Positions 2,653 through 37,998 of a stretch of 37,998 bases of DNA are shown here, one piece after another. Under the pieces are notes generated by a model. The model had not been told where the DNA came from. It was given only the letters and a program-made list of their open reading frames with translations, and did no database searches. Every line of letters begins with the position of its first letter. The first letter of the stretch is position 1. A program made the translations under genes and the position numbers. This DNA is from a virus, in the IMG/VR virus record IMGVR_UViG_3300030109_000601, positions 1 through 37,998 of that record, one strand, 5' to 3'.

Positions 2653-4232
2653 AAACTAACCAACCATGTCCGGATTGTGGAAGCAGTGATGCTTTAGCAA
2701 TCAACGAAGACGGAAGCACTAAGTGTTTTAGTTGTGAAGCCTTTAATCCTAAAGGTGGTGGACAAGAGAAACTAAACCCTACTATGAAAAAACAAAATAA
2801 CTTTGAATATTTAAAAGGGGAAGCCTCGCCCCTTCCGGCAAGAGGCATACACTTGGACACTTGTAAAAAATACAATTACAAAGTAGGCAAGAACGAAAAA
2901 GGCCAATGGGTACACATTGCAAACTACATTAATGATGATGGCAAGATAATTGGTCAGAAGATTAGAACTGAAGGTAAAGATTTCCAGATTCGTGGAAAAA
3001 TATCTCATAGGTTTTATGGTCAGCATTTGTGGAAGAATGGAGGCAACAAACTTATTGTAGTTGAGGGCGAAATAGATTGCCTAACAATGAGTCAACTTCA
3101 GGCCAACAAATACCCCTGTGTTTCCATAAGTCAAGGCGTGGCTTCGGCTAAGACTTTGTTTAAGAAAAACATTCCTTGGCTTGAAAGTTTTAAAGAAGTC
3201 ATACTGATGTTTGATGAAGATGAACATGGAAGGAAAGCTGTTAAAGAGTGTGTGTCTATACTTAAACCTGGAAAAACTTTTGTTGCAAGGCTATCCGGTA
3301 AAGACCCTAACGATTTACTTATGCAGGGTAAAGGGGAAGAAGTTGTTAAGGCTATGTGGGATGCCAAAAAATGGAGTCCTGCAAATATCATAAATGGTGC
3401 AGATTTATTTGAACGTATATCTACTATCAAAAGCAACGACTCAATCCCTTACCCTTTTCCTGGATTAAATTCTAAAACTAAAGGTTTAAGAAAAGGCGAA
3501 ATCTCTCTGTTTTGTGCAGGTAGTGGTGTCGGTAAGTCGCAAGTATGTAGGCAGATTGCTCACCATTTACTGACAACTACTGACAAGAAAGTAGGATACA
3601 TAGCATTGGAAGAGAACATAGAGCGATCCGGCCAAGGTATCTTAGGTTTAGAGTTAGGACGGCTTTTACATTTAGATCCTGTAGAGATCGATGAAAAGTA
3701 TCATGAAGCCTATGACAAGACTGTAGGCTCTGGAAGGTTTTTTGTTTATGACCATTGGGGTTCGATGAACACTGAACAACTTCTTAACCACATCCGTTAC
3801 ATGGTTCAAGCGATGGGTGTTGAGTACGTGGTGTTAGACCATATCAGTATTGTTGTTAGTGGTATGAAAGAGTCTGAAATGGGCAACGAAAGAAAAGCTA
3901 TTGATGTACTGATGACGCAACTTAGAGCTTTGGTTGAAGAAAGTAACTTCGCTTTAATATTAATCAGTCACCTTAAAAGACCGGAGGGTAATAAAGGTTT
4001 TGAAGATGGATTGATGCCTAACTTATCGGCACTCAGGGGGAGTCAGAGTTTAAGTCAGTTATCAGACATTGTTTGTGCTTTATCTAGAAATTTACAGGGA
4101 GAAGAAAAAAACATTACGAAATTAAGTGTTCTTAAAAACCGATTTAGTGGGGAGACTGGTTTAGCGTGTTCGTTAGAGTTCTGCCCCTTCACAGGAAAAC
4201 TAACAGAAGTAGAAGTCAAAGGAGAATTTTAA
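2634..4232 (+). CDS. Bifunctional DNA primase-helicase (T7 gp4-like)
   Basis: Hexameric replicative helicase fused to a primase, 532 aa (T7 gp4A is 566). The N-terminal zinc-binding domain has C12, C15, C31 and C34, needed for primer-site recognition. A TOPRIM primase core follows, with VVEGEIDCLT (Glu near 144) and MFDEDEHGRKA (Asp 194 and 196). The RecA-like SF4 helicase domain has Walker A GSGVGKS (Lys 301) and Walker B VVLDHI (Asp 402), then ILISHLKRPEG and the arginine-finger region LSVLKNRFSGETG near the C-terminus. All activities look intact. Its TAA overlaps the ATG at 4232, and its last codons contain the AAAGGAGA that serves the next two reading frames. Confidence 0.96.
   Translation: MDTSFIETNQPCPDCGSSDALAINEDGSTKCFSCEAFNPKGGGQEKLNPTMKKQNNFEYLKGEASPLPARGIHLDTCKKYNYKVGKNEKGQWVHIANYINDDGKIIGQKIRTEGKDFQIRGKISHRFYGQHLWKNGGNKLIVVEGEIDCLTMSQLQANKYPCVSISQGVASAKTLFKKNIPWLESFKEVILMFDEDEHGRKAVKECVSILKPGKTFVARLSGKDPNDLLMQGKGEEVVKAMWDAKKWSPANIINGADLFERISTIKSNDSIPYPFPGLNSKTKGLRKGEISLFCAGSGVGKSQVCRQIAHHLLTTTDKKVGYIALEENIERSGQGILGLELGRLLHLDPVEIDEKYHEAYDKTVGSGRFFVYDHWGSMNTEQLLNHIRYMVQAMGVEYVVLDHISIVVSGMKESEMGNERKAIDVLMTQLRALVEESNFALILISHLKRPEGNKGFEDGLMPNLSALRGSQSLSQLSDIVCALSRNLQGEEKNITKLSVLKNRFSGETGLACSLEFCPFTGKLTEVEVKGEF
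4218..4225 (+). promoter_or_regulatory. Shared Shine-Dalgarno for two overlapping start codons
   Basis: AAAGGAGA inside the end of the helicase gene is one of the strongest ribosome-binding sequences in this half of the window. It lies 6 bases before ATG 4232 and 8 bases before GTG 4234. Both distances are workable, so one site could start two different proteins two bases apart. In the methyltransferase frame a stop at 4210-4212 leaves GTG 4234 as the only start upstream of motif I. Confidence 0.7.
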
Positions 4233-5044
4233 TGTGGATACTTCCAAAGCAACTATTAGACACCTTTCAATCTGCTCCGGTTACGAAGGAATTGGACTCG
4301 GCCTTAGAAGAATCTTCCCGAATATTACAGAAGTCGCTTTTCTGGAGAGGGAAGCTTATCCCTTGGGAGTCTTGGTTAAGGAAATGGAAAAAGGGCGGTT
4401 GGCTCCGGCTCCTATTTGGACGGATATTGCTACCTTTCCATTCGAAACGTTTCGAGGAAAAGCTCAAATCTGGAGCGCAGGATTTCCTTGTACCCCCTTC
4501 AGTGTTGGTGGCCTTCGCAAGTCGGACAGAGACGAACGACATTTGTACCCCTTCATCGAAGATGGCATTAGAAAGTGTAGACCTCCCATTGTTTTCTTGG
4601 AAAATGTCGAAGGAATCATCACAACAAAGACAAGTGAAGGAGAACCTGTTCTCAAATTTATCCTTAGAAGGTTGGAATCGTTGGGTTACATTAGTGAGGC
4701 AGGAATATTCTCAGCGTCTGAATGCGGAGGAGGCCACCAGAGAAAAAGAGTATTTGTATTGGCCTACGCCCACAGCGAGGGACTGGAAGGATGGGACAGC
4801 GAAAGCTTGCAAGAATACTCCAGTCAACTCTCTTCTGGGGAGGACGGTACACCACGCAAAGTACCTGCCCCAATCAACGAACCTCAACACCTTTGGGAAA
4901 GACCAAGAACTTTACCAACTAAATCCTGCGTGGACGGAACAACTTTTAGAGTTGCCGACCGGACTGACCGAACTCGTCTCTTGGGAAACGGAGTGTTTCC
5001 GAGAACAGCAGAAAGAGCCTTCAGAATACTCTCAAAAAAATTAA
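4232..5044 (+). CDS. Putative overlapping protein encoded in an alternative frame of the methyltransferase gene
   Basis: An open frame of 270 codons lying one frame off the cytosine methyltransferase over almost its whole length. It begins at the canonical ATG at 4232 (TAATG overlap with the helicase stop), 6 bases after a strong Shine-Dalgarno, which is a better start than the GTG of the methyltransferase. The product does not look like random shadow: it is Trp-rich, with MWILPKQL at the N-terminus, MSKESSQQ near 125, WVTLVRQEYSQRL at 151-163, WPTPTARDWKDGT at 177-189 and LNPAWTEQLL at 230-239. I recall WPTPTARDWK and LNP-W-E-L phrases from phage hypothetical proteins found beside Dcm-type methyltransferases, but this is unverified memory. 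The C-terminal SWETECFREQQ is the +1 reading of the methyltransferase motif LLGNGVFPRTA. Function is unknown. Alternatively it is a long fortuitous open frame. Confidence 0.6.
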   Translation: MWILPKQLLDTFQSAPVTKELDSALEESSRILQKSLFWRGKLIPWESWLRKWKKGGWLRLLFGRILLPFHSKRFEEKLKSGAQDFLVPPSVLVAFASRTETNDICTPSSKMALESVDLPLFSWKMSKESSQQRQVKENLFSNLSLEGWNRWVTLVRQEYSQRLNAEEATREKEYLYWPTPTARDWKDGTAKACKNTPVNSLLGRTVHHAKYLPQSTNLNTFGKDQELYQLNPAWTEQLLELPTGLTELVSWETECFREQQKEPSEYSQKN

Positions 5045-8012: not shown

Positions 8013-8033
8013 TTTGTTCGGGTATAGGAGGAC
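8010..8033 (+). promoter_or_regulatory. Phage RNA polymerase promoter, copy 1
   Basis: A 24-base sequence found again without change at 34260-34283. Read against the T7 promoter, positions -17 to -1 are TAATTTGTTCGGGTATA and the transcript would begin at G 8027 with GGAGGAC. T7 has TAATACGACTCACTATA followed by GGGAGA. The TAAT at -17 and TATA at -4 are kept at the same spacing, while the middle specificity part differs. The repeat begins exactly at -17. It lies between the DNA metabolism genes and the structural genes, where a middle/late promoter is expected. The initial transcribed GGAGG also supplies the Shine-Dalgarno of the next gene. Confidence 0.87.
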
Positions 8034-34246: not shown

Positions 34247-34259
34247 TTATAGGTCTTTT

Positions 34260-34283
34260 TAATTTGTTCGGGTATAGGAGGAC
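34260..34283 (+). promoter_or_regulatory. Phage RNA polymerase promoter, copy 2 (phi-OR-like position)
   Basis: Identical over 24 bases to 8010-8033: -17 to -1 TAATTTGTTCGGGTATA, start at G 34277. It lies 14 bases after the endolysin stop and reads into non-coding repeats instead of directly into a gene. In T7 the promoter phi-OR has this location at the right end and acts in replication and packaging; that role is inferred here. Confidence 0.85.
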
Positions 34284-34304
34284 AGAAGGACTCAAATAAT
34301 CCTT

Positions 34305-34364
34305 ACTATTAGATAACTATTAGTCAACCTATGGAAATAGAGTTTTAATAGTTTTGTTAATAGT
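34305..34364 (+). repeat. Paired inverted repeats downstream of promoter copy 2
   Basis: ACTATTAG occurs at 34305-34312 and 34316-34323. Its near-complement TTAATAGT occurs at 34345-34352 and 34357-34364. The two arms could form a hairpin with two 7-bp segments (ACTATTA/TAATAGT) in the RNA or single strand just after the promoter start. A role as termination, replication or packaging signal is possible but unproven. Confidence 0.6.
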
Positions 34365-34390
34365 CGTTGTAAGTTGTTTCCTATAGATAA

Positions 34391-34420
34391 CTTAAAGTAA
34401 CTTAAAGTATCTTAAAGTAC
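34391..34420 (+). repeat. Three tandem 10-base repeats containing CTTAAAG
   Basis: CTTAAAGTAA, CTTAAAGTAT and CTTAAAGTAC follow each other without gap; TTATAGTGTC and TTACAGTTGG continue the 10-base period in decayed form to 34440. T7 carries arrays of the heptamer CCTAAAG next to its terminal repeats, so this array is a candidate end-associated element. Confidence 0.8.
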
Positions 34421-34643
34421 TTATAGTGTCTTACAGTTGGTTAAAAGTGACTGTAATCAACTACCTACAAACACAACCCCTCAGAAACCTTTAGTTTTGG
34501 TGCAAAAATCTGTTGAGGTAATGTATAGAATGCGGCCGCTCCTGACCCCCGATGAGGTATAGAAGCCGGTCAAAACTATCATTAATTGAAATTCTAAGGG
34601 GGGCCGTCACTTAAAAATGTCACCTAACGACTTAAAACATTAT

Positions 34644-34649
34644 TATAAT
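34644..34649 (+). promoter_or_regulatory. Possible host sigma70 -10 element for the early genes
   Basis: A perfect TATAAT lies 124 bases before the first early gene, where host-type early promoters would be needed before the phage polymerase is made. No convincing -35 hexamer is seen 16-18 bases upstream, so the call is weak. Confidence 0.3.
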
Positions 34650-34772
34650 AGACTGCACTCCAGACTATAGAGATTGAGAGATTGAAACCATTATTAACTA
34701 CTGTTCAAACGAATACTATCATGGCTCGTTTTCAAATTCGAGTGTGTGTTTGTTTGTTGATGTTTTTGCCAT

Positions 34773-35087
34773 ATGAACAATAAAAACACTTATAAACCTA
34801 AAAGCCTATTAATAGCCGGACACAAACTAGCTATTGAGTACCGGAAAGACTTTGAAGATTTTGGACAATTCAACGTTGATCGGATGACTATAATTATAAG
34901 AGACTCACTAAACCCAAAAGAAACACTTTCAACAATCATCCATGAGTCAGTCCACGCAATTTTAGCCCTTTCCGGACTTAGTTATCTGATTGATGATGAA
35001 GCAAAAGAAGAGGCACTTGTAAGGGCTATTGATTACTTACTAATCCCAATCATCAAAAGAGAACTAAAAGCATTCAACGAGTCTTAA
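34773..35087 (+). CDS. Putative small zinc metallopeptidase (HExxH)
   Basis: A 104-aa protein with HESVH at residues 57-61 in TLSTIIHESVHAILALSGL and an acidic stretch DDEAKEEALVRAID (72-87) that can supply the third metal ligand (Glu 79 or 80). This spacing resembles small ImmA/SprT-like phage proteases. The N-terminal part has IAGHKLAIEYRKDFEDFGQFNVDRMTIIIRD, typical of the strand region before the active helix. It is the first gene after the non-coding region, so an early host-takeover role, such as cleavage of a host regulator, is plausible but inferred. Its start lacks both a Shine-Dalgarno and the leader motif of the genes that follow. Confidence 0.75.
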   Translation: MNNKNTYKPKSLLIAGHKLAIEYRKDFEDFGQFNVDRMTIIIRDSLNPKETLSTIIHESVHAILALSGLSYLIDDEAKEEALVRAIDYLLIPIIKRELKAFNES

Positions 35088-35173
35088 AAGTATCTTTATA
35101 TTTTCTTGCAAATAACTTGCAATCATCGATTAAAAGCTTAGAATTAATACGCCTAAAATAGGCATTAAATTAA

Positions 35174-35189
35174 ACCATAAATAAAAAAA
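35174..35189 (+). repeat. Early-gene leader motif, copy 1 (variant)
   Basis: ACCATAAATAA followed by A-rich sequence, ending at the ATG of the gene at 35190. It lacks one C compared with the other copies. Just before it, a 5-bp hairpin GCCTA-aaa-TAGGC lies at 35151-35163. Confidence 0.65.
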
Positions 35190-35669
35190 ATGAAAATTAA
35201 CGAAGTAAAAAAGACAATTGCAGCTATTGAGAATCAAGTAATGAGCCTAGTTATCAGTGATTGCATTAAGAACCCACTAATTGCAGCCGGATTTATTAAA
35301 GACTATAAACTTAATGACCATAATCTATTCTATGAATCTTTAAACGAGTTCAATATCTCTAGCTTGCTAGATTATCTTGATTACCTATGCGACAACAAAG
35401 AAAACAGAGAGTTTATTAACTCTTATCTAAACATAGACTTTCCATGCATATCAAGTTCCGGTCGTTATGATATTGGAAATATTAAAGGTTCGGAAGTTGT
35501 CGAAATAGATAGCCATATGATTAATATGGATATTTACAGGCTCAAAGACCAGTTGAGGAACGCAAGAGATACAATTAAAAGCCTTTTGAAATTTAGCAAG
35601 CTTCCAATCATAGAAAAGCCAATTGAGGACAATTCGCATTCATTCCGTCCGGCTTATGGTGAGTATTAA
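35190..35669 (+). CDS. Hypothetical early protein
   Basis: A 159-aa protein I do not recognise. It is mixed alpha/beta with a helical N-terminus (KINEVKKTIAAIENQVMSLVI), a middle containing FNISSLLDYLDYLCDN, a Gly/Ser turn (CISSSGRYDIGNIKGSEVVEID) and a long charged helix (YRLKDQLRNARDTIKSLLKFSKL) that may form a coiled coil. No signal peptide or catalytic pattern is visible. It lies in the early cassette region behind leader copy 1. It is preceded by about 100 AT-rich bases with two CTTGCAA repeats (35105-35111, 35116-35122), a possible but weak promoter region. Confidence 0.75.
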   Translation: MKINEVKKTIAAIENQVMSLVISDCIKNPLIAAGFIKDYKLNDHNLFYESLNEFNISSLLDYLDYLCDNKENREFINSYLNIDFPCISSSGRYDIGNIKGSEVVEIDSHMINMDIYRLKDQLRNARDTIKSLLKFSKLPIIEKPIEDNSHSFRPAYGEY

Positions 35670-35679
35670 TAATCAACTA

Positions 35680-35713
35680 ACTAACCCATAAATAAACTAA
35701 CTATCATGAAAAA
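35680..35713 (+). repeat. Early-gene leader motif, copy 2 (34-base exact repeat with copy 3)
   Basis: Thirty-four bases, from ACTAACCCATAAATAA through the ATG at 35706 and its first codons, are identical to 36096-36129. The identity runs into the coding sequence, so a recent duplication or recombination joined these leaders. Confidence 0.9.
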
Positions 35714-36035
35714 AGAAACTAAAACCTTACTCAACAAGCTTGATAATTTACGAGCTAAGCAAGAAGATCTAACTTCAGATTTAGTGAAATCTTTACTAAT
35801 TCAAGAAATATGTCCGAATGCTTTTGACAACGGATCGTGTAAATCTTTTGTAGCTATTAAAGGCACTGAAGACAAAAAAAGCTTTAATCTTTATAAACTA
35901 TCAAAGGCAAAGTTTCCTAGGGATTTCTCGTTAGTCGTTACTGATGGAAAAGGCAAAAGATCAGTTTATGATTTAGAGCCTTTTGAGAAGCTTGAGGAGC
36001 TTGAGCTATTAAATCCGAAACGCATACTAGCCTAA
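35706..36035 (+). CDS. Hypothetical early protein
   Basis: A 109-aa Lys-rich protein without a recognised family. The first 30 residues form a probable helix (KKETKTLLNKLDNLRAKQEDLTSDLVKSLL). Then follow CPNAFDNGSCKSFVAIKGTEDKKSFNLYKL, probably a small beta sheet, and an acidic helix FEKLEELELLN. Its start sits in leader copy 2 and its first 19 coding bases (MKKETK) are the same as those of the gene at 36539, so the two share both leader and N-terminus. It is followed by two tight hairpins. Confidence 0.75.
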   Translation: MKKETKTLLNKLDNLRAKQEDLTSDLVKSLLIQEICPNAFDNGSCKSFVAIKGTEDKKSFNLYKLSKAKFPRDFSLVVTDGKGKRSVYDLEPFEKLEELELLNPKRILA

Positions 36036-36041
36036 TTCGAA

Positions 36042-36080
36042 ACCGCCACAAGGCGGTCTATATGGAACGGTCACCATATA
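36042..36080 (+). other. Two adjacent perfect hairpins
   Basis: ACCGCC-acaa-GGCGGT (36042-36057) is followed one base later by TATATGG, an 8-base loop and CCATATA (36059-36080). No T-run follows, so they are not ordinary intrinsic terminators. They may be RNA processing or stability elements between early genes. Confidence 0.65.
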
Positions 36081-36085
36081 CTGAA

Positions 36086-36129
36086 GAGATAGACCACTAA
36101 CCCATAAATAAACTAACTATCATGAAAAA
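36086..36129 (+). repeat. Early-gene leader motif, copy 3 (extended)
   Basis: GAGATAGACCA at 36086-36096 runs into ACTAACCCATAAATAA and the ATG at 36122. The 3' part repeats copy 2 exactly over 34 bases (36096-36129). The 5' part repeats copy 4 (36313) with one mismatch over 26 bases, linking the copies as a mosaic. Confidence 0.9.
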
Positions 36130-36298
36130 CGAAATCAAAAAACTATCCTTTTATGAACGCGCATGTGAACACTTAAGATCCATGGCAGAGTTGCCGGATG
36201 GCCCACGCAAGCATTGGCCTGTGCCGAATGACTTTAGGGCTAGCGCTGAAGAAGTTGCCGCGGCCCTTAGAAGAAACTTTTACAAAAGTTGGTATTAG
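36122..36298 (+). CDS. Small hypothetical early protein
   Basis: A 58-aa product: a helical N-terminus (KNEIKKLSFYERACEHLRSM), a polar turn ELPDGPRKHWPVPNDF and a C-terminal helix RASAEEVAAALRRNFYKSWY. No family is recognised, and the mix of charged helices suggests a small soluble protein that acts by binding a partner. Support comes from the leader motif immediately before its ATG, the good composition and the stop just before the next leader. G+C of the second half is higher than in neighbouring genes (GCCGCGGCCC). Confidence 0.7.
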   Translation: MKNEIKKLSFYERACEHLRSMAELPDGPRKHWPVPNDFRASAEEVAAALRRNFYKSWY

Positions 36299-36312
36299 GC
36301 GCGTACATCGAT

Positions 36313-36346
36313 GAGATAGACCAATAACCCATAAATAACTAAAAAA
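36313..36346 (+). repeat. Early-gene leader motif, copy 4
   Basis: GAGATAGACCA, then AATAACCCATAAATAA and an A-rich run ending at ATG 36347. The first 26 bases differ from copy 3 at one position. Confidence 0.88.
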
Positions 36347-36520
36347 ATGAATAGAGAACTAATAATTGAGCTAGTTGAATCTGGTAATAATGAAGGGCTT
36401 TGCACAGCTTGCGGTGAAATTGCAGATTGCGTTGAGCCGGACGCAAGAAATTACACTTGTAACGCTTGCGGTGAAAATAAGGTTTTTGGAGCCGAAGAAT
36501 TATTGATCACTTTAATCTAA
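36347..36520 (+). CDS. Small zinc-ribbon protein
   Basis: A 57-aa product with four cysteines in two knuckles: CTACGE (residues 19-24) and CNACGE (39-44), separated by IADCVEPDARNYT. This is a typical rubredoxin-like zinc ribbon, and the phrases CGE...VEPDARNY-C--CGE-KVFGAEELL are widespread in small phage proteins, from memory. It probably binds a host protein or nucleic acid; the target is unknown. An extra Cys at 28 (ADC) is present. The TAA stop is part of the next leader motif (CTAACCC), so gene end and leader are fused. Confidence 0.8.
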   Translation: MNRELIIELVESGNNEGLCTACGEIADCVEPDARNYTCNACGENKVFGAEELLITLI

Positions 36521-36538
36521 CCCATAAATAAAAACAAA
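36517..36538 (+). repeat. Early-gene leader motif, copy 5
   Basis: CTAACCCATAAATAA and an A-rich run ending at ATG 36539. The TAA stop of the zinc-ribbon gene lies inside the motif. Confidence 0.85.
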
Positions 36539-37012
36539 ATGAAAAAAGAAACTAAAATATATAGCGGTAGTCTTGAAACTAGGGAACGCTGCAAAAGTCC
36601 GGAAGATAGAAGAAGCCTTCTAAAAATTGAAAGCATAGACGCAAGATTACTAAAAGACTTAAGAGGTGTAGAGCCTTATGGTAACGAGCCTATTAGTATA
36701 GATTCGAACACTTATAAAGTATGTTATAATCGTGGCAATGCTAGAATATGGATTGAGGGTAAACGTTTAATCAATAACGGAATTTACAACGGTTTAAAAT
36801 TCGTTAAATCCGTTAATGATTACGGTATTATTTTAAAGTTCTTACCGTCCGACTATGCGGGAAAGTCTCACAAGATAGCCGGTAGCGTTGAACGTCCTAT
36901 AATTGATCTAAATGGCAAGTATCTAACTAAGTTCTTTGGGGATGCTGAAAATTACAAGGTGACCTTTTGGAAAGGTTTAAACCTCCATTATATAATAATC
37001 GAAAAAGTTTAA
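36539..37012 (+). CDS. Hypothetical early protein
   Basis: A 157-aa protein with no family that I recognise. The N-terminus is charged (KKETKIYSGSLETRERCKSPEDRRSLLKIESID). The rest alternates short hydrophobic strands and turns (TYKVCYNRGNARIWIEGKRL, GIILKFLPSDY, KVTFWKGLNLHYIIIEKV), suggesting a beta-rich fold. The first 19 coding bases are the same as in the gene at 35706, consistent with cassette recombination at starts. Its function is unknown. Confidence 0.75.
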   Translation: MKKETKIYSGSLETRERCKSPEDRRSLLKIESIDARLLKDLRGVEPYGNEPISIDSNTYKVCYNRGNARIWIEGKRLINNGIYNGLKFVKSVNDYGIILKFLPSDYAGKSHKIAGSVERPIIDLNGKYLTKFFGDAENYKVTFWKGLNLHYIIIEKV

Positions 37013-37017
37013 AGAGT

Positions 37018-37098
37018 ATGGAATTCTTATTAATACCCTTAGCAATTCTAACGGTCTTTTTTATAGCCGTTGCTATCATAGAAAAACTAAACCCATAA
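37018..37098 (+). CDS. Tiny membrane protein (26 aa)
   Basis: MEFLLIPLAILTVFFIAVAI followed by IEKLNP: essentially one transmembrane helix with a short charged end. It starts 5 bases after the previous stop, preceded by AAAGAG. Its TAA forms part of the next leader motif (ACCCATAA). Such single-helix peptides occur in phage early regions, often as inhibitors or superinfection-exclusion factors, but no function is claimed. Its small size makes the call moderate. Confidence 0.55.
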   Translation: MEFLLIPLAILTVFFIAVAIIEKLNP

Positions 37099-37103
37099 AA
37101 AAA
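37088..37103 (+). repeat. Early-gene leader motif, copy 6 (short)
   Basis: TAAACCCATAAAAAAA directly before the GTG at 37104. The spacer between the motif and start is the shortest of the set (13 bases from ACCC to the start). Confidence 0.7.
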
Positions 37104-37814
37104 GTGCCATTACTTAATAAAGGAAATTCAAAAACCGTAAAAGGTGAAAAGTTAGGATATAGGACATATGGCCTACACCTTGCGCCTTATAACCTATCAG
37201 GCCGGAACATCTGCCCTCATGCCTCAAAAGGTTGTGCTAAAAGTTGTTTAAACACTGCCGGACGTGGAGCAATGCAAAACGTGCAAGATGCTAGAATAAA
37301 GAAAACTCAAAGATTCTTTACAAATCGTAGAGAGTTCTTAAGTGACTTGAAAAAGGAAATCACAAGCTCTATTAAATCAGCTAAAAGAGCCGGATACATT
37401 CCGGCATTGCGTTTAAATCTGACTTCAGACTTGCCTTGGCATAAAATAGGGAACGACCGGAACGCTTCAATTATAGAGGAATTTCCGGAACTGCAATCAT
37501 ACGACTACACAAAAGACTATAGACGTATGATTGACTTTCTTGATGGCAAGCTGCCGGATAACTATGATTTAACTTTTAGTTATTCGGAAGATACAACGGA
37601 TAAGCAACTTAAAACCATTCTTGCAAAAGGTGGCAAGGTTGCGGCCGTTTTTAGAGGGCCGGAACTACCTAAGAGCTACCTAGGTTTTAAAGTAGTGGAC
37701 GGTGATGAATCGGATTTAAGATTCTTAGATCCTAAAGGCGTGATTGTCGGACTAGTTGCAAAAGGCAAGGCTAAGAAAGATAAAAGCGGTTTTGTAATAG
37801 ATCCAGAAAATTAA
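37104..37814 (+). CDS. Gp88-family protein (gene product 88 type), function unknown
   Basis: A 236-aa protein with all the signature phrases of the phage/mobile-element Gp88 family: GNSKTVKGEKLGYRTYGLHLAP, NICPHASKGCAKSCLNTAGRG (Cys 37, 44, 48), VQDARIKKTQRFFTNRREFL, ALRLNLTSDLPW, SYDYTKDYRRM, LTFSYSED, and the C-terminal VDGDESDLRFLDPKGVIVGL followed by AKGKAKKDKSGFVI. The three-Cys cluster near the N-terminus could bind a metal or Fe-S cluster, but the activity of the family is not known to me. The start is GTG 37104, directly behind leader copy 6. A strong terminator follows, so it ends an early transcription unit. Confidence 0.87.
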   Translation: MPLLNKGNSKTVKGEKLGYRTYGLHLAPYNLSGRNICPHASKGCAKSCLNTAGRGAMQNVQDARIKKTQRFFTNRREFLSDLKKEITSSIKSAKRAGYIPALRLNLTSDLPWHKIGNDRNASIIEEFPELQSYDYTKDYRRMIDFLDGKLPDNYDLTFSYSEDTTDKQLKTILAKGGKVAAVFRGPELPKSYLGFKVVDGDESDLRFLDPKGVIVGLVAKGKAKKDKSGFVIDPEN

Positions 37815-37822
37815 CCAAAAAC

Positions 37823-37885
37823 AAAAACCGGATTTCTAATTGATTTTAGATTTCCGGTTTTTTTTATTTTTTTTTTATTTTAATT
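37823..37885 (+). terminator. Intrinsic terminator after the Gp88-family gene
   Basis: AAAAACCGGA...TCTAA pairs with TTAGA...TCCGGTTTTT (about 11 bp, a two-base T-T internal loop, then 5 bp). A very long T-rich tract follows. It ends the early gene cluster ahead of the last leader copy and the polymerase gene that should follow. Confidence 0.88.
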
Positions 37886-37890
37886 ACTAT

Positions 37891-37920
37891 CATTCGGGCG
37901 CATTCGAGCGCATTCGAGCA
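37891..37920 (+). repeat. Three tandem 10-base repeats CATTCGAGCG
   Basis: CATTCGGGCG, CATTCGAGCG and CATTCGAGCA lie directly after ACTATCAT and directly before leader copy 7. The 10-base period equals one DNA turn, so a protein-binding operator is possible. They sit between a terminator and the next gene start. Confidence 0.8.
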
Positions 37921-37942
37921 ACCCATAACAAACAAAAAACAT
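37918..37942 (+). repeat. Early-gene leader motif, copy 7
   Basis: GCAACCCATAAC followed by an A-rich run up to ATG 37943. It places the gene at the right edge of the window in the same leader group. Confidence 0.7.
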
Positions 37943-37998
37943 ATGTATATAGATGAAGAAGAAGCCCTAGAAGAAGTCTGGAAATCCCTGGAATTACT
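37943..37998 (+). CDS. Start of a further gene, cut by the window edge
   Basis: ATG 37943 opens MYIDEEEALEEVWKSLEL, an acidic amphipathic helix, and runs off the end. The leader motif just upstream supports the start. Since the window begins inside the RNA polymerase gene and this region appears to precede it in genome order, this could be the polymerase N-terminus. Eighteen residues cannot decide it. Joining the window ends directly gives a stop at once, so at least some sequence is missing between them. Confidence 0.55.
   Translation, partial: MYIDEEEALEEVWKSLEL

Follow-up and report, generated by a model that had tools for sequence, protein, structure and literature searches.

A short leader without G is repeated before seven of the nine gene starts in the early region of a virus with T7-like genes, IMG/VR record IMGVR_UViG_3300030109_000601 (37,998 bases; this whole stretch is called the window below). 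The early region as examined runs from 34247 to 37998, lies after the amidase gene, and is cut by the end of the window. We observed directly that the leader has a set position and strand relative to gene starts, that it is restricted to the early region, that it lacks both G and a Shine-Dalgarno (SD) sequence, that its copies are alike within the genome, and that genes change around it. We infer, with a probability of about one half, that the repeated leader functions as a genome-specific, SD-free translation start region that doubles as a recombination joint.

The repeated leader was confirmed, with all of the coordinates and identities reported for it in an earlier reading made from the sequence alone. 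That reading had placed a motif 13-22 bases before seven of the nine early starts and found none at 34773 and 37018, and a mismatch scan of the 40-nt leaders agreed. Relative to the 12-mer ACCCATAAATAA, there were no mismatches before the starts at 35706, 36122, 36347, and 36539, one each before 35190 and 37104, and two before 37943, compared with nine before 34773 and four before 37018. The distance to the start codon was 13-22 nt from the beginning of the motif and 1-10 nt from its end in the seven copies (Table 1). With up to two mismatches allowed, the early region had no + strand sites besides these seven, and the 29 late leaders had none; the motif is thus confined to the non-structural (early) genes. 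On both strands of the whole window there were 13 such sites (4.5 expected; none of 100 shuffles was as high), and the six outside the early leaders were all on the minus strand. With at most one mismatch there were six forward sites and no reverse sites, and a control with the reversed pattern gave one. The leaders also resembled one another when no motif was specified: one exact 10-mer was common to five of the nine early leaders and never to more than three in 2000 dinucleotide shuffles, and the mean pairwise longest common substring gave z scores of 14.0 for early leaders and -1.4 for the late genes of the window.

Some copies are alike well beyond the motif. A 34-base stretch (35680-35713; common string ATGAAAAA) is the same in copies 2 and 3 and includes the start codon and the first codons; copies 3 and 4 differ at one of 26 bases; and 19 coding bases match exactly between the genes at 35706 and 36539. 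All of these identities were as first described. Copies 1, 6, and 7 have just the core in common. The stops of two genes had been placed inside the motif as well. This holds for the stop of the 26-aa frame in copy 6; the stop of the gene at 36347-36520 overlaps the 12-mer by one base and lies fully inside only when the motif is defined as TAACCCATAAATAA.

The early leaders lack the usual signals for starting translation and are predicted to be accessible. G was absent from positions -22 to -1 in all seven motif leaders. None of the nine early leaders contained SD-like words (the sequence-only reading had stated this for the seven with the motif), compared with seven of 28 late leaders of the window. 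The predicted unpaired fraction at the start was 0.74 for the seven leaders, 0.61 for 29 late genes, and 0.48 for 150 random places, and the seven leaders exceeded the late genes with a one-sided p of 0.005. Structured RNA was found at only one of the seven leaders, a hammerhead ribozyme at copy 3. No terminator-like sites were found at the leaders on the + strand. In the mechanism that we propose, the motif would be the core of an early-gene leader of about 22-25 nt, an RNA of A, C, and U only that extends to the start codon. Such an unstructured leader could let 30S subunits load through the start codon, A-rich contacts, and possibly S1 contacts.

Gene content differs around the leaders between the window and its closest relative. 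The closest relative found was contig 3300030106_002111, represented by two loci (L037 and L007), with a terminase that is 100% identical and a GP88 protein that is 94% identical. A block that contains the hammerhead and leader (36034-36112) is 90% identical to L007:314-392, and non-homologous genes lie directly on both of its flanks. L007 lacks the genes at 36122 and 36347, which are flanked in the window by copies 3, 4, and 5. By inspection, the left side of the leader at the L007 junction continues copy 3 and the right side resembles copy 5; the junction reads like the product of a deletion between direct repeats, with insertion as the alternative. Elsewhere, other leaders precede the homologues of the gene at 35706 (in L053) and of that at 36347 (in L046 and L050; 79-81% identical). 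Where the DNA was aligned, for L053 and L046, similarity starts at the ATG or a few codons later. Because the same leader precedes many small genes, it may act as a joint where such genes are lost, gained, or replaced.

The sequence-only reading had offered both functions, a non-canonical translation signal and short homology for swapping cassettes. The first gains from the fixed position and strand relative to starts, the lack of G, the high accessibility, and the lack of promoters and terminators, and the second from the conserved block with different flanking genes and the absence of two genes from L007; both are still short of proof.

Repeated early leaders recur in related phages, mostly with other sequences. 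In L007/L037, the motif stands before the homologues of the genes at 35190, 36539, 37104, and 37943, the gene that replaces 35706, and the integrase gene, and it has been kept even though the proteins have drifted to 64-96% identity; the RNA polymerase gene of L007 is preceded by a short form, CCATAAATCATG. The sequence-only reading held that absence of the motif before the early genes of relatives would refute it, and this came out half so. The exact 12-mer was absent from relatives beyond L007/L037, and what many of them have instead is a G-poor leader containing TAACC. In 16 relative loci with terminases 87-93% identical, TAACC was present in 34 of 86 non-redundant early leaders (9.1 expected; z = 7.9) and was missing from the top words of 28 late leaders, and the last 22 nt were free of G in 50 of the 86 early versus 10 of the 28 late leaders. 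These counts leave out 71 early genes with a gap of less than 22 nt to the upstream gene and the redundant leaders (14 of 100 early, 18 of 46 late); gene calls in relatives were mechanical (first ATG, at least 30 aa) and include some false genes.

Early leaders were self-similar (z of at least 3) in eight of 25 loci or records: the window, L046, L050, L074, L111, HTVC309P (z = 11.5), HTVC019P (7.0), and MedDCM-OCT-S42-C7 (12.6). The repeated leaders of HTVC309P (L119; AACAGAAAAGGTAAAT) and MedDCM-OCT-S42-C7 (L122; CTACAAAAGGAGAAAAACAT) include SD-like words, and that of HTVC019P (L121; ATCAACAATCAAC) is followed by an SD in several copies. These three phages resemble the window in that a single, uniform leader precedes many of the early genes of each genome, and differ from it in that their leaders have other sequences and hold SD-like AAAGG or GGAG. 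Because eight of the 25 are self-similar, and the three named phages have SD-like words and other sequences, we conclude that these phages show repeated early leaders as a recurring trait, with the leader of the window being the G-free variety. A search of all viral contigs for TAACCCATAAATAA followed by 3-12 nt and ATGAA gave 15 contigs with one copy each, although near relatives may lie outside what it returned. No second near copy was present in the stretches examined of these contigs, 10 of the 15 have one identical site in common, and we took them to be unrelated.

If the leader is a start region and joint, recombination between copies would homogenize the leaders of each genome, and their sequence would drift from one genome to another. 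We suggest, more tentatively, that some T7-like marine phages each keep a private, concertedly evolving translation leader that makes incoming genes readable at once, and that in this phage the SD has been lost and a self-cleaving ribozyme separates the mRNAs. Small host-takeover genes turn over fastest in the early regions of phages. If our interpretation is true, a stable leader would explain how newly arrived genes are translated immediately, and leaders would be a handle for finding gene slots in unannotated phages. The leader also offers a natural test case of SD-free initiation in marine alphaproteobacteria.

The main rival is that the motif is a site for a trans-acting regulator, from phage or host and acting on RNA or DNA, that co-controls the early genes and changes together with its site. 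T4 RegA, which acts on RNA, and stoperators, which act on DNA, are parallels. The copies are more identical than an accessible leader alone requires, and the consensus differs between HTVC309P, MedDCM-OCT-S42-C7, and HTVC019P, as expected for co-evolving sites; for MedDCM-OCT-S42-C7 versus HTVC309P, four of the five homologues listed have a leader closer to those of their own genome. However, the distance between motif and start codon is not constant, the sequence evolves quickly among phages with terminases about 90% identical, the duplicated stretch extends into coding sequence that a protein site would not need, and we identified no candidate regulator. A factor may read the sequence itself, but we regard a regulator as rather unlikely.

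We give somewhat less credence to the copies being functionless relics of a recent duplication of gene starts (leader and first codons). The long identity of copies 2 and 3 across the start codon, the coding bases common to the genes at 35706 and 36539, and the hammerhead tail without a ribozyme at copy 4 are what such duplication would leave. However, L007/L037 have kept the motif while the proteins drifted, the TAACC core and G-poverty recur in relatives, and copies 1, 6, and 7 have the core alone in common. Finally, a promoter for the host RNA polymerase or a phage T7-like RNA polymerase would fit an A/T-rich motif on one strand upstream of genes, but we rejected it as very improbable: sigma-70-like matches were as frequent as in shuffles with none at the leaders (the host promoter type may differ), a separate T7-promoter-like sequence is present exactly at 8014 and 34264 and also in L037, no late gene has the motif, upstream stops overlap it, and there is no G near a possible +1.

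Several results weigh against the leader being a translation start region and joint. Pairing of the leader with SAR116 16S rRNA outside the SD region was no better than in shuffles (longest complement 7 nt), and this candidate was rejected. Absence of an SD may reflect the host and not be special to these genes, because the likely hosts, of SAR116 type, use few SD words (5 of 29 leaders from four SAR116 loci, with crude gene calls). Three of the four ends of the blocks matching between the window and L007 coincide with a leader or the ribozyme, and the fourth lies inside the gene at 36539. In five groups of relatives, homologous blocks had 54 ends, which are not independent of one another, and 31 of these fell between -35 and +12 relative to a start in one genome or the other, versus 23% expected by position. 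Many ends adjoin stops as well, and so much of this pattern is expected from ordinary exchange at gene boundaries; we consider the excess near starts supportive, not decisive. Among all 397 pairs of homologues, leader likeness within the genome (5.71) barely exceeded that to the leader of the homologue (5.63). Likeness within the genome was greater in 114 of 184 comparisons when genomes with repeated leaders were selected, which is partly circular. Lastly, 17 of the 25 loci or records were below z = 3 for leader sameness, a signal that automatic gene calls may dilute.

One of the leaders is joined to a predicted type II hammerhead ribozyme. It begins at the stop codon of the gene at 35706 and ends one base before motif copy 3. 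It thereby sits between two small early genes, both of which differ in L007, where the hammerhead is kept (315-378; 36.5 bits, just under the gathering score). Cleavage is predicted after C36058, a site assigned by inspection. All 18 predicted pairs, including the pseudoknot, form in both the window and L007, and two of them are compensatory; with only two sequences, and with 136 of 500 shuffles equaling this, the compensatory pairs are suggestive only. Copy 4 follows a second hammerhead 3' tail (tail and motif together 36313-36338), at which Rfam gave no match at E values up to 1 and before which there was no recognizable 5' part of a ribozyme. The likeness of copies 3 and 4 noted in the sequence-only reading is real; the hammerhead had been missed, and the extra bases in common are explained by both copies carrying the hammerhead 3' tail with the motif. 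No further hammerheads at the gathering score were found in 20 relative loci or records or in 10 GP88 loci. Cleavage could cut a polycistronic early RNA such that the downstream mRNA begins with the stem I hairpin, followed by the leader. The link between hammerhead and leader suggests that this group of phages processes its early mRNA.

The host is probably a marine alphaproteobacterium. T7-like genes of the window encode a terminase (with a T7 RNase H domain), a DNA polymerase A, and the amidase, and by inspection 1-1659 resembles the C-terminal portion of an RNA polymerase. The terminase shares 72% identity with its counterpart in uncultured phage MedDCM-OCT-S45-C18 (Ayaqvirus), about 61% with that of Roseobacter phage CRP-227, and about 56% with those of pelagiphages. 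Beyond the point where the window is cut, L007 continues (by inspection) with small genes, the integrase gene, half of a tRNA-Leu, and the start of the RNA polymerase gene. The 5' half of the tRNA-Leu (about 4214-4260) lies right behind the integrase gene, similar cores are present in eight other relatives, and it is a probable attachment site. Searching genome contigs with the full 40-base attP gave zero matches. A looser pattern from the attP cores of relatives, of a tRNA type that is weak evidence on the host, matched 18 genome contigs with alphaproteobacterial titles except for one "Proteobacteria bacterium"; four were titled SAR116, and it is on this search that the host assignment is based. 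The SAR116 16S rRNA has a canonical anti-SD in two assemblies (two of six genomes searched matched).

Other repeated words were noted in the window and in relatives. The T7-promoter-like sequence TTGTTCGGGTATAGGAGGAC is identical at 8014-8033 and 34264-34283 (+ strand) and unlike the leader motif; among terminase loci, its core was otherwise seen only in L037, once. All seven occurrences of the word ACTATCAT in the window (34575, 34715, 35700, 36116, 37886, 54, and 20068; five of them early) are on the + strand, as are all ten in L114; the word was noted in L068 and L071 as well. Repeats of GCATTCGGGC, perhaps a binding site, are present in the early regions of L007 (1851, 2282, 2669, 3366, and 3437), L075, L040, and L041, with variants at 37890-37920 of the window, and only on the + strand in loci checked for strand. 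The early regions of L081, L082, L084, and L087 contain short direct tandem repeats with a unit of about 11-12 bases. The gene at 37104 starts with GTG in the window and with ATG in L007.

Table 1. Leader copies, ribozyme elements, and early genes of the window.
Feature	Position	Strand	Remarks
Motif copy 1 (AACCATAAATAA)	35173..35184	+	leader of gene 35190
Motif copy 2 (exact)	35684..35695	+	leader of gene 35706; within the 34-base identity
Motif copy 3 (exact)	36100..36111	+	leader of gene 36122; directly 3' of hammerhead ribozyme
Motif copy 4 (exact)	36327..36338	+	leader of gene 36347
Motif copy 5 (exact)	36520..36531	+	leader of gene 36539; first base is last stop base of gene 36347
Motif copy 6 (ACCCATAAAAAA)	37091..37102	+	leader of gene 37104; contains stop of 26-aa frame 37018
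Motif copy 7 (ACCCATAACAAA)	37921..37932	+	leader of gene 37943
Start-proximal coding bases, 19, exact match	35706..35724 and 36539..36557	+	from ATG on
Type II hammerhead ribozyme (RF02276)	36035..36098	+	Rfam 42.3 bits, gathering 37
Hammerhead stems	III 36043-36047/36052-36056; I 36059-36065/36074-36080	 	two-pair II; predicted fold
Hammerhead pseudoknot, loop I to 3' tail	36069-36072/36092-36095	 	predicted fold
Hammerhead 3' tail and motif copy	36313..36338	+	before gene 36347; 26 bases, one mismatch to copy 3
Early gene, 109 aa	35706..36035	+	no family match; homologue in L053; different gene here in L007
Early gene, 58 aa	36122..36298	+	no family match; not found in L007
Early gene, 57 aa, two CxxC pairs	36347..36520	+	homologues in L046, L050; not found in L007
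Early gene, 157 aa	36539..37012	+	N-terminal part differs in L007 homologue
GP88 family protein (PF17338)	37104..37814	+	
Gene start	37943	+	truncated by window end; complete homologue in L007
T7-promoter-like sequence	34264..34283	+	identical to 8014-8033

The leader has counterparts among known repeated elements. By title and abstract opening, none of the open-access papers listed in our searches describes repeated start leaders in T7-like marine phages. The statement in the sequence-only reading that no element of this form had been described was nevertheless too strong, since the start-associated sequence (SAS) of cluster K mycobacteriophages (PMC3203893) comes close and T4 has a shuffling element, the PeSL. 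In T4-type phages, the PeSL is an early promoter with a stem-loop that is repeated between small early genes and linked to their shuffling. The leaders of the window likewise repeat between small early genes and mark junctions of exchanged genes (relative to L007), but no promoter or terminator was found at them. The T7-type promoter, conserved over about 20 bp, differs in standing before middle and late genes.

Reports on cluster K describe the SAS as a 13-bp sequence, GGGATAGGAGCCC, with an AGGAG SD core and one consensus over the cluster (PMC3203893, PMC12699233). Like the leader motif, it is a short asymmetric repeat with many copies in one orientation a few nucleotides before starts, is found with non-structural genes only, and sometimes contains the upstream stop (PMC3203893); it is often before different gene families, and its proposed role is translation initiation (PMC3203893, PMC12699233). 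The motif of the window differs in that it has no G and no SD core and that the leader varies between relatives. We found no ESAS-like inverted repeats in the window, which has one hammerhead instead.

In Flavobacterium, initiation is described as A-rich, low in structure, and SD-free (PMC6847099), and among CA-rich translation enhancers a cited ACAA repeat promotes initiation without an SD (PMC3879156). The leaders of the window are similarly A-rich and low in structure. Neither of those systems is a near-identical repeat within a single phage; one is a host-wide tendency and the other an enhancer that accompanies an SD. Type II hammerheads of prophages have a pseudoknot and flank small genes, with mRNA processing as one possible role (PMC3088659). 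The hammerhead of the window matches them in its core, in having stems I and III closed and a stem II of two pairs, in the tail pseudoknot, and in its place between small phage genes; it differs in being joined to a repeated leader, and its self-cleavage is predicted. The nearest described element to the leader is the cluster K SAS, which has almost all formal features in common with it and differs in the SD core and in the constancy of the consensus.

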